From the NCBI GenBank assembly GCA_943348755.1, contig CALQYS010000006.1:1-48506 (forward strand): a stretch of DNA of 48,506 nucleotides, written 5' to 3'. Shown one piece after another: positions 13,446 through 17,653 of this stretch. A model generated the notes under the pieces. It did not search any database and had not been told where the DNA came from. It saw nothing but the letters and a program-made list of their open reading frames with translations. This stretch comes from Candidatus Nomurabacteria bacterium. GTDB lineage: Bacteria; Patescibacteriota; Minisyncoccia; Phycocordibacterales; UBA9973. Numbering within the stretch: the first letter of the stretch is position 1; every line of letters begins with the position of its first letter. The position numbers were made by a program, and so were the translations under genes.

Positions 13446-13517
13446 CAGGCTCACCCATGCCTCCATTTTTTCAATTTAACATTTTTTGCGATTTTATCAA
13501 AAATAAAACAAGAACAT

Positions 13518-13542
13518 AAAAAGCCCCTTTTGGGAGCTTTTT
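13518..13542 (-). terminator. Intrinsic terminator, probably once that of tRNA-Glu
   Basis: AAAAAGCCCC-TTTT-GGGAGCTTTTT forms a stem with a single bulge and T-runs on both strands. Only 8 bp separate it from the mobile element's left end. Joining the two flanks of the element would place it about 13 nt after the tRNA-Glu 3' end on the same strand. Confidence 0.6.
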
Positions 13543-13549
13543 ACTACGC

Positions 13550-13837
13550 GTGAACTAATTATACACTTTGCACGAACTTTTTTCGAGGGGAAATCCTAGC
13601 GTGCCTCGCGCCCGCCAAAGGCGGGCAGGCGTTCTACGCCCTTTTTCCAAAGGAGAAAAGCGAGGCACGCAATACCAATACAAAATGGACTCGGTTTTGC
13701 GAAACTATTTTGCGGGAGGGAGGGTTCGCAAAACCGAGACTAAGTTTTTTGAAATTCGGCGGGATTCGGGTTTCCGCCCCGCAGGAGGGTGCGGGAGGAA
13801 TGCGGGGCGGGGGTTTTGGAATTTTGGCGGGGGGCTA
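13550..13837 (+). repeat. 288-bp inverted repeat, left copy (module A)
   Basis: Identical by eye to the reverse complement of 15554-15841. It contains nested palindromes: GCGTGCCTCGC...GCGAGGCACGC enclosing GCCCGCC-aaa-GGCGGGC, CTCGGTTTTGCGAA...TTCGCAAAACCGAG, and a GC-rich arm around CCGCCCCGC...GCGGGGCGG. The outer end carries TATAAT facing outward. The 93-codon ORF in each copy (MHELFSRG...) is low-complexity readthrough of these structures and I do not call it a gene. Confidence 0.92.
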
Positions 13838-13855
13838 GAAAATTCTTAAAATTGA

Positions 13856-14998
13856 TTAGAGGCTTAATATGCCAGAAAGCTCAAAGGCAGATTTTAATCT
13901 TGCTTGTTTGATTTTGCTTTCTAGTGAATCATCAAAATCTATCCATCTAATACCATATACATTTATGGTTTGTCTTTTGGTGGGTTGGATACCATTTCTT
14001 TTTTCATTTTCATAATACTCATATTTTTTGACTGATTCAGTGGGAAGACCAAGAAGAATGCCAACAGCCAAATGATTACCTACTGCTGATTTATTTTCGC
14101 CAATAGAACCCATAATTGTATCTGGATCATCAGAACCGAAAATCTCAAATATCTCTTTATGTTTTTTTATAACATCTCCAACTTGTTCTTTGTCATATAC
14201 ATACTTACCTTTCACTTCTATACCAAAAGATTTTAATAAATTAATTATTTCTAAATTATCAGGGTCCAGAGGTGTTTCAAGTAAAACAACAGGTTTTTCT
14301 CCCAAAAATAGTGCCTTGAGTGCGTTCAGATCGATTGGGTTAAAAATGGTTTCAAATTTTTCTCGTACTGATTGTTCTTGTATGATTTTAATAAATTGCT
14401 TAAATTTTTCTGCTCCTTTATTCCATTTTAAGGTATCTAATTCGTTAAAAATTTCTACTGGAGATTCAAATATTACTGGAGCTGGTGGAGTATTAGCACT
14501 TGTTCGTAAAGCATTGTTATATAATGTGTGAAATTCTGAATTTAATATTGTATATTCTTGCTCATCACCACTGGAAAGAGAACCTAAAAGTTTCCTCAAC
14601 CTACTAAGGATTTGTAGTCGCTCAAACTTTTCGTCATCCATTTCAAATACAATAGGATGCTCCATAGAATCTTGACTCCGTGTTTTGGTAATATGTTCTT
14701 CCGGTTTTTCAGTATTTGCAACTCTTACACGGCTTGAAGTTTCAACAGCATTAATAAATTTTTTATTCAAATCGGAATACTCTTCTCTGTCTGCTTCACT
14801 TAAGTTTTCACCCATAGCGAGAATTGCACCAAGTTCTTGAAGTCGGTTAAAATTTTCTTCTCCCATTATTTCTACACTATTATATCCATTAGGAACCACA
14901 GGAGAAGCTTCAGCAGTTGTTGATATGTTTTCTATCTTTTTTTGTGTTTTTACACCATTTAACGATGGATTAAGCGGTGTGGGTGAAAATCCTTCCAT
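13856..14998 (-). CDS. Unknown cargo protein of module A
   Basis: 380 residues, not recognised. The N-terminus is Ser/Pro/Thr-rich and disordered. Two similar helical segments follow, FNRLQELGAILAMGENLSEA (about residue 50) and FERLQILSRLRKLLGSLSSG (about residue 124), each continuing with (E)EYxxLNxxF, so an internal duplication is likely. The C-terminal half is globular-looking (VVLLETPLDPDNLEIINLL, VGNHLAVGILLGLPTESVKK). There is no signal peptide or membrane segment. TAGAAT lies 6 nt before the ATG, giving the leaderless layout. It ends 18 bp from the left inverted repeat. Confidence 0.75.
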   Translation of the reverse strand: MEGFSPTPLNPSLNGVKTQKKIENISTTAEASPVVPNGYNSVEIMGEENFNRLQELGAILAMGENLSEADREEYSDLNKKFINAVETSSRVRVANTEKPEEHITKTRSQDSMEHPIVFEMDDEKFERLQILSRLRKLLGSLSSGDEQEYTILNSEFHTLYNNALRTSANTPPAPVIFESPVEIFNELDTLKWNKGAEKFKQFIKIIQEQSVREKFETIFNPIDLNALKALFLGEKPVVLLETPLDPDNLEIINLLKSFGIEVKGKYVYDKEQVGDVIKKHKEIFEIFGSDDPDTIMGSIGENKSAVGNHLAVGILLGLPTESVKKYEYYENEKRNGIQPTKRQTINVYGIRWIDFDDSLESKIKQARLKSAFELSGILSL

Positions 14999-15095
14999 GC
15001 TTACATTCTATCACAAAAATACTATACACATAATTTTGCTTGACTTCCTTCGCTCGTTTGCTATACTTAATACACAAAGTGCCGAAAGGCTCCGA

Positions 15096-15120
15096 GAAAC
15101 CCCGCCAAAAGCGGGGTTTC
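15096..15120. terminator. Hairpin between the two module A genes
   Basis: GAAACCCCGC-caaaa-GCGGGGTTTC is a perfect 10-bp stem directly after the toxin gene on its strand. No strong T-run follows, so an attenuator or mRNA end is possible. Confidence 0.45.
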
Positions 15121-15126
15121 GAGTTT

Positions 15127-15516
15127 CTAGAGGAAAGATTTTAATTTTTGCCTAATTTCATCAAAAAGTTCGTTTGAAACCTCATAGAGCTTTCTTTTTA
15201 ATCTTTTCACACTAACTAATTTCATTTGTGCCAAAATCGCAGAAACTTTTTGATTATTTGGATCGGTGTAATTGAAATAAAAATCAAAATCTTTCTGCTT
15301 GGTGGAAAGTGATATAGACCAAAACATATGATTATTAAATTTCTTAATTATTAAAATCGGACGAGAAAAATTATCTCCGCTTCCATTTTGTTCAAATCCG
15401 ATATTTCTGCCAAGACTACACATCCAAACTTCTCCCTCTTTGGGAAATTTATCAGGATCATTTTTCTCGGCTTCAATTTTCTTTTTTAACTCATTCCAAG
15501 AGTCAAAATCTTTCAT
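15127..15516 (-). CDS. MazF/PemK-like toxin (type II toxin-antitoxin family)
   Basis: A 129-residue protein resembling the PemK/MazF fold: GEVWMCSLGRNIGFEQNG, then FSRPILIIKKFN, then FWSISLS, then the C-terminal SAILAQMKLVSVKRLKRKL. These correspond to the family's G(D/E)(V/I)W, RP.(L/V)(I/V), and (S.(I/A)..(Q)(I/M)(R/K).(I/V)) blocks. MazF-type proteins are sequence-specific mRNA endonucleases. No antitoxin gene is visible beside it; the neighbour upstream is the inverted repeat. It may help stabilise the element, or be a degenerate or regulatory relative. TAAAAT lies 6 nt before the ATG. Confidence 0.75.
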   Translation of the reverse strand: MKDFDSWNELKKKIEAEKNDPDKFPKEGEVWMCSLGRNIGFEQNGSGDNFSRPILIIKKFNNHMFWSISLSTKQKDFDFYFNYTDPNNQKVSAILAQMKLVSVKRLKRKLYEVSNELFDEIRQKLKSFL

Positions 15517-15553
15517 AGAAAGATTTTATCATATTTTGTATTTAATTTCTGGA

Positions 15554-15841
15554 TAGCCCCCCGCCAAAATTCCAAAACCCCCGCCCCGCATTCCTCCCGC
15601 ACCCTCCTGCGGGGCGGAAACCCGAATCCCGCCGAATTTCAAAAAACTTAGTCTCGGTTTTGCGAACCCTCCCTCCCGCAAAATAGTTTCGCAAAACCGA
15701 GTCCATTTTGTATTGGTATTGCGTGCCTCGCTTTTCTCCTTTGGAAAAAGGGCGTAGAACGCCTGCCCGCCTTTGGCGGGCGCGAGGCACGCTAGGATTT
15801 CCCCTCGAAAAAAGTTCGTGCAAAGTGTATAATTAGTTCAC
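15554..15841 (-). repeat. 288-bp inverted repeat, right copy (module A)
   Basis: Reverse-complement copy of 13550-13837. Its outer end has TATAAT at 15828-15833 on the plus strand reading toward the recombinase, with TCGAAA 17 nt upstream as a weak -35. Together with 15838-15967 it fills the gene-free stretch between the toxin and the recombinase. Confidence 0.92.
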
Positions 15842-15967
15842 CCAAAGAAACGTTTGCGAAATTAGAAATAAGGTGCGAGTTTTCAGAATGAAAACTCGCG
15901 CTAGGTAGCCCGCTTCCGCCCTTTGCGGAAGCGACAAAATCCCAAAGTTCCCCCCAGTGTATGGAAA
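15838..15967 (+). repeat. 130-bp inverted repeat, left copy (module B)
   Basis: Perfect reverse complement of 17375-17504. It holds two strong hairpins: GCGAGTTTT-cagaatg-AAAACTCGC and CGCTTCCGC-ccttt-GCGGAAGCG. Its inner end contains the ATG assigned to the recombinase. Confidence 0.95.
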
Positions 15968-17562
15968 CAATTCAAATCAAAACAAAATGTGTTCTCTACG
16001 CCAGAAAATCTACTGAAGATGACGACAAACAAGTCATGAGTATTGAAGCTCAACTTTTTGAACTGCGTGAATATGCGCGTAGAGAATGCATTGAAATTCT
16101 AAAAGAATTTACGGAAGCGAAAAGCGCAAAGAAACCCGGGCGAGAAGAATTTGCCAAAATGTTGGCGTTCGTGGAAACTTCAAAAGAACCAATCGGCATA
16201 CTCGCTTGGCATCCAGACCGTCTCGCCCGAAATTCTGTTGATGGTGGAAAAATAATATACTTAGTGGACATCAACAGAATTGCTTCTTTACGCTTTCCTC
16301 AGTTTTGGTTTGAATCAACTCCGCAAGGCAAATTTATGTTGCAAGTGGCTTTCGGACAATCAAAATATTTTTCTGATAATCTTGTTGAAAATGTGAAGCG
16401 CGGAGTCCGCCAAAAACTTCGCCGTGGGGAATGGCTTACAAAAGCTCCGTATGGTTATGTAAATAATTTGAAAACGAGAAATATTGAACCTCATCCCGTG
16501 TATTCAAAAATCGTGGTGAGAGCTTTTGAAGAATATGTGAAAAATATTTACACCATTGAAGGATTAAGCAAATTTTTGGCGGACTTAGGACTTGTCACAA
16601 AAATAGGAAAGCCACTTGCCAAAGCTTGCATTGTGCGATTACTTACCAATCGTGCATATTTAGGATTTATCAAACACCACGATGAATGGCACAATGGAAG
16701 CTTTGCGCCAATTATTTCTCCGACCCTGTTTGAAGCAGTGCAGAAAATCTATAAAACGAGACAGAGACCGAGAAAATCTAAAATTGCTCATCCATTTCAT
16801 TTTCTCGGTTTTGCTCGTTGTGGCGAGTGTGGAGGTATGTTTACCGCTCAATATTCTACCAACCGTTTTGGCACAAAATATTCATATTATCGTTGCACAA
16901 AAAAGTTTGGGAAGTGCGGTCAACTATACCTCCAAGAAAACGCACTCGCCACACAACTGCAAACACTGCTTCAATCAGTGTCGCTTCCCCGTGAAGAAAT
17001 ATTAAAAATGGAAAAGAAAATTGATGAATGGGAAAATGAAAATATTTGCGCGCGGGGAAGTGTTGTCCAAAATCTCAAAGAAAAGATTCGAGAAAATCAA
17101 GAGAAGCTGGACAAACTTGTTTCCATTTACCTAGACGGGGACATTGAACGAGAAATATATTTAGAACGAAAAGATTTACTCATGCGAGAAAAAGCTTCTT
17201 TTCTCGAATCCGAAAGAGATTTTGGACAACAGAGAAAAAATTGGATCGAACCCTTGCGGAGTTTCGTTTTGTCCTTGAAAGAATGTGCCGATTTGGAAAA
17301 AACCGAAAATTATTTGGAATGGAAGCGGTTTTTCAAAAAAATCGGCTCTAACCCTGAAATCAAGGACAAAACGATTTCCATACACTGGGGGGAACTTTGG
17401 GATTTTGTCGCTTCCGCAAAGGGCGGAAGCGGGCTACCTAGCGCGAGTTTTCATTCTGAAAACTCGCACCTTATTTCTAATTTCGCAAACGTTTCTTTGG
17501 GTGACCCTACAGGGAATCGAACCCTGATTATCGGATTGAAAACCCGGTGTCCTAACCGTTAG
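15961..17562 (+). CDS. Large serine recombinase
   Basis: A site-specific recombinase of the resolvase/invertase superfamily. The catalytic domain begins CVLYARKSTEDDD with Ser17 as nucleophile, and continues with MSIEAQ and the arginine motif WHPDRLARN. A recombinase (DNA-binding) domain follows (APYGYVNN...). Then comes a zinc ribbon (CGECGG...YYRCTKKFGKCG, near residues 287-320) and a coiled coil near 340-430. The last 43 or so residues before the tRNA are encoded by the right 130-bp repeat, and the final 20 (GDPTGNRTLIIGLK...) are antisense tRNA-Glu, so the natural C-terminus is probably lost or fused. The start codon lies in the left repeat. Confidence 0.9.
   Translation: METIQIKTKCVLYARKSTEDDDKQVMSIEAQLFELREYARRECIEILKEFTEAKSAKKPGREEFAKMLAFVETSKEPIGILAWHPDRLARNSVDGGKIIYLVDINRIASLRFPQFWFESTPQGKFMLQVAFGQSKYFSDNLVENVKRGVRQKLRRGEWLTKAPYGYVNNLKTRNIEPHPVYSKIVVRAFEEYVKNIYTIEGLSKFLADLGLVTKIGKPLAKACIVRLLTNRAYLGFIKHHDEWHNGSFAPIISPTLFEAVQKIYKTRQRPRKSKIAHPFHFLGFARCGECGGMFTAQYSTNRFGTKYSYYRCTKKFGKCGQLYLQENALATQLQTLLQSVSLPREEILKMEKKIDEWENENICARGSVVQNLKEKIRENQEKLDKLVSIYLDGDIEREIYLERKDLLMREKASFLESERDFGQQRKNWIEPLRSFVLSLKECADLEKTENYLEWKRFFKKIGSNPEIKDKTISIHWGELWDFVASAKGGSGLPSASFHSENSHLISNFANVSLGDPTGNRTLIIGLKTRCPNR
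17375..17504 (-). repeat. 130-bp inverted repeat, right copy (module B)
   Basis: Inverted copy of 15838-15967. It codes for the recombinase C-terminal region (SIHWGELWDFVASAKGGSG) on the plus strand and overlaps the last 3 nt of tRNA-Glu. Confidence 0.95.
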
Positions 17563-17573
17563 ACGATAGGGCC
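17502..17573 (-). tRNA. tRNA-Glu (TTC)
   Basis: Minus strand: acceptor GGCCCTA/TAGGGTC, D arm TCGTCTAACGGTTAGGAC, anticodon loop TTTTCAA (TTC), and T arm CAGGG-TTCGATT-CCCTG. Discriminator A is followed by CCC, not CCA, and these bases belong to the mobile element repeat. TTGCAA, 16 nt, TATATT lies just upstream on the minus strand and should be the promoter. The recombinase ORF reads through this gene in antisense and stops inside it. Confidence 0.93.
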
Positions 17574-17653
17574 ATGTAGAAAAATATAGCATTTTTGTAC
17601 TTAATTGCAAAACAAAAGAATAAATTAAATATAAAAAAATATTTTGAAAAAGT

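Follow-up and report, generated by a model that had tools for sequence, protein, structure and literature searches.

A two-lobed integrative element of Patescibacteria with a serine integrase gene that probably contains its own attachment site and exchanges its C-terminus on integration

The window, the whole stretch of 48,506 nucleotides analysed here, lies within a 694-kb genome of Candidatus Nomurabacteria and encodes a recombinase whose relatives are Patescibacterial. Both ends of the recombinase gene touch the same inverted repeat, and its last codons are read from the antisense strand of a tRNA gene. This raises the question of what kind of element carries a recombinase that is completed by its target, and how the protein would end before insertion. 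It is very probable that positions 13550-17504 form an integrative element that is moved by a large serine integrase, that its free form is a two-lobed circle with the attachment site attP inside the integrase gene, and that the tail of the protein is swapped upon integration.

The open reading frame at 15961-17562 contains the Pfam domains Resolvase, Recombinase and Zn_ribbon_recom, all above cut-off, and its best PHROG match is phrog_95, an integrase. The catalytic serine, located in the motif YARKS, is invariant across 38 homologues. The start codon (ATG, 15961-15963) lies in the left arm of the repeat and its complement CAT in the right arm, where the plus strand, the integrase gene's own strand, encodes the conserved sequence SIHWGELWDF. 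The two arms span 130 bp with 0 mismatches, far above chance, and the arms with their ATG and CAT are exactly as a preliminary description had reported. The same is true of its reading of the 3' end, as the frame enters tRNA-Glu(ttc) in antisense for about 20 codons and stops inside the tRNA gene. A TCGAAA-17-TATAAT box outside the left arm is promoter-like and may represent a promoter. A structure model of the homologue L050 was looked at for a coiled coil in or after the zinc ribbon and shows long helices at residues 342-389 and 395-425 (mean pLDDT 68); the AlphaFold model of its native-tail protein has pLDDT values below 50 for residues 461-528 and is thus uninformative about the fold of the tail. 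Relatives of the element were also sought among viral contigs, where none were found.

The sequence outside the left arm (...CGAAAAAAGTTCGNGCAAAGTGTATAATTA|NNAC, termed the P flank) is conserved in unrelated loci whichever tRNA gene is occupied. A search of the family for this flank revealed an inverted second copy at 13556-13577, at the start of a second perfect inverted repeat of 288 bp, which flanks a cargo lobe on the left and overlaps the 130-bp repeat by the 4-bp core TCAC (Table 1). The arms that had been described as framing the gene are therefore real, but the left one is internal and the 288-bp repeat extends beyond it. The 130-bp repeat would represent the integrase-side half of a larger duplicated attachment region that was split by integration. 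The core TCAC is common to three junctions (J1, J2 and J3), of which J1 and J3 have the same orientation. On paper, recombination between J1 and J3 therefore yields a circle and an empty tRNA-Glu gene with a terminator-like hairpin behind it. The empty site would read TCAC and then GCGTAGTAAAAAG; terminator-like hairpins are also present 3' of unoccupied tRNA-Glu genes in relatives.

Table 1. Features of the integrated element and its target, by position in the window
Feature	Positions	Strand	Basis and remarks
Host side B' of the attachment site	13504..13549	-	Terminator-like hairpin; would lie 3' of tRNA-Glu in the empty site
Whole integrated element	13550..17504		3955 bp, J1 core to J3 core; junction comparison in 8 elements with clear J1 and exact repeat extents
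J1 core, attR-like (P.TCAC.host)	13550..13553	-	TCAC on minus strand; junction comparison and repeat extents
Arm Y'	13550..13837		Perfect inverted copy of 15554-15841, 288 bp
Orphan native integrase tail, ELIIHFARTFFEGKS then stop	13552..13596	+	Conserved in other elements
Cargo, 380-aa protein	13856..14998	-	No Pfam family above cut-off
Cargo, PemK/MazF-like toxin family protein	15127..15516	-	Family match
Arm Y	15554..15841		Exact repeat comparison
Second copy of integrase C-terminal codons with native tail	15795..15971	-	Antisense to the gene's own start region
Promoter-like TCGAAA-17-TATAAT	15805..15833	+	In P half, outside arm X; read from sequence, flank conserved across loci
J2 core TCAC, intact attP (P.TCAC.I)	15838..15841	+	Junction comparison
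Arm X (left arm)	15838..15967		130 bp; exact repeat comparison
Large serine integrase, 533 aa as integrated	15961..17562	+	Last codons antisense to tRNA-Glu; Pfam and PHROG matches
Arm X' (right arm)	17375..17504		Exact repeat comparison
tRNA-Glu(ttc), target	17498..17574	-	3' end restored by the element
J3 core, attL-like (tRNA.TCAC.I)	17501..17504	-	TCAC on minus strand; junction comparison

The proposed free form is circular and measures about 3.95 kb; the integrase lobe and an exchangeable cargo lobe would be held apart in it by two perfect inverted repeats of 414 bp, each with attP at its centre. One attP would recombine with the 3' end of the tRNA gene; the repeat around it would be split and its halves would become the element's two ends, while the other repeat would stay whole and provide the intact internal attP at J2. 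Judging from where identity begins, the crossover would take place at tRNA bases 71-72. Integration would also replace a conserved tail of the integrase (IIHFARTFFE...) by codons that are antisense to the tRNA. The junctions lend good support to the view that both integration and excision are carried out by the serine integrase, with attP and the tRNA 3' end as its partner sites; among the contigs examined the circle was not seen in free form. The preliminary description did not extend to the cargo lobe and the second repeat, nor to the att sites and the location of attP inside the integrase gene.

The two-lobed layout recurs in L011, L016, L052, L009, L147, L137, L156, L170, L172 and L173, with repeats of 358 and 140 bp in L011 and of 242 and 131 bp in L016, all of them 100% identical. 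The tRNA gene is found at the integrase 3' side in 59 and at its 5' side in 1 of 79 locus records with arms, a count in which some duplicates may remain. The targets of these armed loci span 13 tRNA isotypes and the core tracks the tRNA, being TCAC at 16 of 18 Glu sites, GCAC at most Leu and CCAC at most Ala sites. A GTTCG motif occurs in P and in the tRNA, at distances from the core of 23-24 bp and 18 bp, respectively. In serine integrases the zinc-ribbon motif is shifted outwards by about 5 bp in attP relative to attB (PMC3783163). The GTTCG spacing is close to this shift, and GTTCG may be the zinc-ribbon motif. In a tree of arm presence the arms mark the large clade, yet a single origin of the arms is unsupported, since some of the arm-less rows are decayed or truncated and the deep branches are long.

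The same genome carries a second two-lobed element on contig C9 (L156, 8150-15884), with a Shedu (SduA) defence gene and a class-III aminotransferase among its cargo. An orphan tail at the end of this contig (RCVLNEVRMYFELNPDDQ; L221, C9:21-80) suggests a further element, belonging to a distant arm-less integrase group. The left end of L137 (6918-7210) directly joins the apparent I arm of a different element in a tandem or nested insertion, and the two recombinase genes of L168 (5098-8779) lie within an inverted duplication of 1.5 kb (84%) that surrounds a tRNA cluster. In L010/L139 a tRNA-Leu(caa) gene takes the place of the usual P flank at the outer side of the left arm, and the element is located between two tRNA genes.

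The attP site lies about 15 codons before the stop codon of the integrase. In silico joining of X' to the P side leaves the reading frame open across attP, and in nearly all of 46 elements the stop then follows after about 40-58 nt, the conserved C-terminal tail being gained in this way (for example AVIIHFARTFFERN, DVLLSFARTYFEQNES and WCVINKVRTYYEQNPDAD); the circularised frames of L040, L042, L096 and L103 run beyond this range. The native-tail integrase would comprise 529 aa, against 533 aa with the tRNA tail. In the integrated state the frame crosses J3 towards the tRNA in all 46, and stops 4 to 210 nt past the junction with a tail and a distance that vary with the site. This bears out the earlier proposal that the insertion site sets the C-terminus, and the different tails that it anticipated at other insertions are indeed found among the various tRNA targets. 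The same proposal had counted a tRNA-derived tail shared by homologues elsewhere as a point against itself. Elements in tRNA-Glu genes do share a DPTGNRT-like tail, but they share it because the target is common to them, and elements in Leu, Ala, Lys, Tyr, Phe, Gln and Asn genes have other tails.

The native tail is under coding constraint although it lies within an attachment site, as judged from a codon test on 36 dissimilar elements. The synonymous fraction is 0.502 in the tail frame compared with 0.107-0.155 in four other frames, and shuffling the alignment columns gives a mean of 0.230, with 0 of 1000 shuffles reaching the observed value. The mirror frame is also high (0.458) due to its shared wobble positions, yet it contains stops in 17 of the 36 elements; the tail frame has them in only 1, against 15-25 in the other frames. 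When the C-terminus of an arm-less, distant relative served as query, the search returned integrase bodies that end near query residues 49-56 and orphan tails that start near residues 51-53, in separate genomes; bodies and tails part at the same residue. The split of the gene is thus independent of the repeat. The protein of the circle is an in silico reconstruction, and an unsplit, fused integrase gene is present in only two real contigs (L050/L207 and L166). L207 has a scaffold gap and its arms fit a circle and a flipped lobe alike. The other, G140:C88, carries the fused gene and was rejected as a circular contig because a terminal overlap is absent. On this contig (L166/L212) the full-length native-tail serine integrase sits beside a tyrosine-recombinase-like ORF, and its stop codon is about 85 bp from the contig end.

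The cargo is different in each of the two-lobed elements compared. In the window it consists of two genes only, neither of which matches relaxase or conjugation families, the mark of ICEs and IMEs, and no replication gene or initiator was recognised in the cargo lobes examined. The Y arm contains a hairpin (TCTCGGTTTTGCG...CGCAAAACCGAGTCC, 15644-15703) that is also found in L050, L073 and L162 and could be an origin, a terminator or a protein site. A cassette array of attC-like hairpins in the Y arms was considered and rejected; the hairpins are real, but only four distinct ones pass a strict search and no array was seen.

One pair of isomers shows that the orientation of the integrase lobe can differ. 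L024 and L046 derive from the same strain in two samples, with flanks that are 99.6% identical over 2976 bp and lobes that are 99.8% identical over 1709 bp, and the lobe is inverted relative to tRNA-Glu between them. The lobe may invert in place. Between these two records the arms form a mosaic, which indicates that the arms have exchanged sequence and makes the crossover unmappable, so that site-specific and homologous inversion are indistinguishable here. In the usual orientation the gene would keep the promoter-like box in P together with the tRNA tail, and in the flipped orientation it would regain the native tail and sit downstream of the tRNA gene. The earlier claim that inversion leaves the frame and the upstream region intact is not supported; the promoter-like box lies outside the arm and would be replaced by the tRNA gene, and the reading frame would receive a different C-terminus, namely the conserved native one.

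Tail exchange might alter the activity of the integrase, and inversion might restore the gene. A more specific and rather doubtful idea is that the tail controls the direction of the reaction. The integrase with its native tail would integrate the element, the tRNA-derived tail would impair excision and so lock the insertion, and a flip of the lobe would rejoin the native tail and reopen excision. If this were true, the near-uniform orientation of the insertions would be explained. Equal use of two identical attP copies predicts similar frequencies for the two orientations, as opposed to the strong bias seen; such a bias is at odds with equal use, except where the flipped form does not last long, as the switch idea would predict. 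No second excision factor came to light, and the idea offers a possible way for a very small element to steer direction with no separate factor.

A genuine possibility, if somewhat short of probable, is that the element is the same, with attP in int, and that neither the tail exchange nor the repeat has a regulatory role, the repeat instead serving the replication or copying of the circle. The yeast 2-micron plasmid (Flp/FRT), a plasmid with two repeats, offers the comparison; it replicates autonomously, encodes a tyrosine recombinase and consists of two unique lobes with inverted repeats that hold the recombination sites. The proposed circle resembles it in its two lobes and in its repeats with sites, but here neither a replication gene, in the cargo lobes examined, nor a circle has been seen, and the former speaks against a role in replication. 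The tail is only about 15 codons long, and the distant relatives without arms have a split tail too, so that repeat and split tail are separable; both points favour this reading, whereas the coding constraint on the tail does not.

It is improbable that the arms are inversion sites whose main purpose is to flip the recombinase gene, as in an invertase cassette. The opposite lobes of L024 and L046 are what such a cassette would produce, but it leaves unaccounted for the second repeat, the cargo and the att junctions at many tRNA genes. It also sits poorly with an orientation bias of 59 to 1, with arms of about 130 bp that differ between elements and with a protein family that is integrase-like. 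It is hardly credible that a transposon whose terminal inverted repeats measure 130 bp landed next to the tRNA gene, for although near-perfect arms bound the recombinase gene, the arms were ruled out as transposon ends by the left outer flank, conserved across insertions at different sites, which makes the left arm internal, and by the second repeat outside it, with which the element reaches 13550. An assembly artefact deserves as little credence; the assemblies are drafts and many contigs break at the arms, but real repeats cause such breaks, and the layout recurs with element-specific sequences in many independent assemblies.

The integrative element with attP in its integrase gene would have practical consequences for annotation. 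The orphan tail, the attP repeat and the tRNA gene may serve as landmarks for the ends of many Patescibacterial islands, and the tRNA-like C-termini of annotated Patescibacterial recombinases would be explained as a property of the integrated state that differs from the native end of the protein. In the open-access literature searched, no account was found of Patescibacterial serine recombinases with inverted repeats and a tRNA, nor of an attP duplicated in inverted repeats.

Several known systems share parts of this arrangement. Large serine integrases of the A118/phiC31 type are alike in domain order and in the attP/attB spacing rule, and differ in that here the target is a tRNA 3' end and attP lies inside int. 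Integration of ICEKp1 at a tRNA gene changes the control of int via the promoter (PMC13023037), whereas here, in the common orientation, the promoter-like box would stay and the C-terminus would change. In the integration-dependent immunity of mycobacteriophage BPs, attP is located in the repressor gene and integration changes the C-terminus of the repressor and thereby its fate (PMC4557955); the gene altered here is that of the integrase. The archaeal SSV-type 'suicidal' integrases carry attP inside int, target tRNA genes and have their gene split by integration, and a 2021 review calls such self-disrupting recombinases exclusively archaeal (PMC8371274). The present element shares with them an attP within the integrase gene, but is no member of the SSV type, being based on a serine recombinase in a bacterial (Patescibacterial) host; SSV-type enzymes are archaeal tyrosine recombinases whose gene is cut into two large parts, and here the catalytic part stays whole. 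It would thus be a bacterial serine-recombinase gene that is edited by its own integration, where the review recognises archaeal tyrosine recombinases only (PMC8371274). A bacterial precedent is the Myxococcus phage Mx8, in which attP lies in the integrase coding sequence and integration creates a new int 3' end without inactivating the gene (PMC6070905). In contrast to Mx8, the integrase here is a serine integrase, the element measures about 4 kb, a tail of about 15 codons is lost, and there are two copies of attP, held in inverted repeats. Overall, we rate the element as a likely bacterial serine-integrase counterpart of the SSV and Mx8 elements with attP in int, distinguished by its two-lobed repeat.
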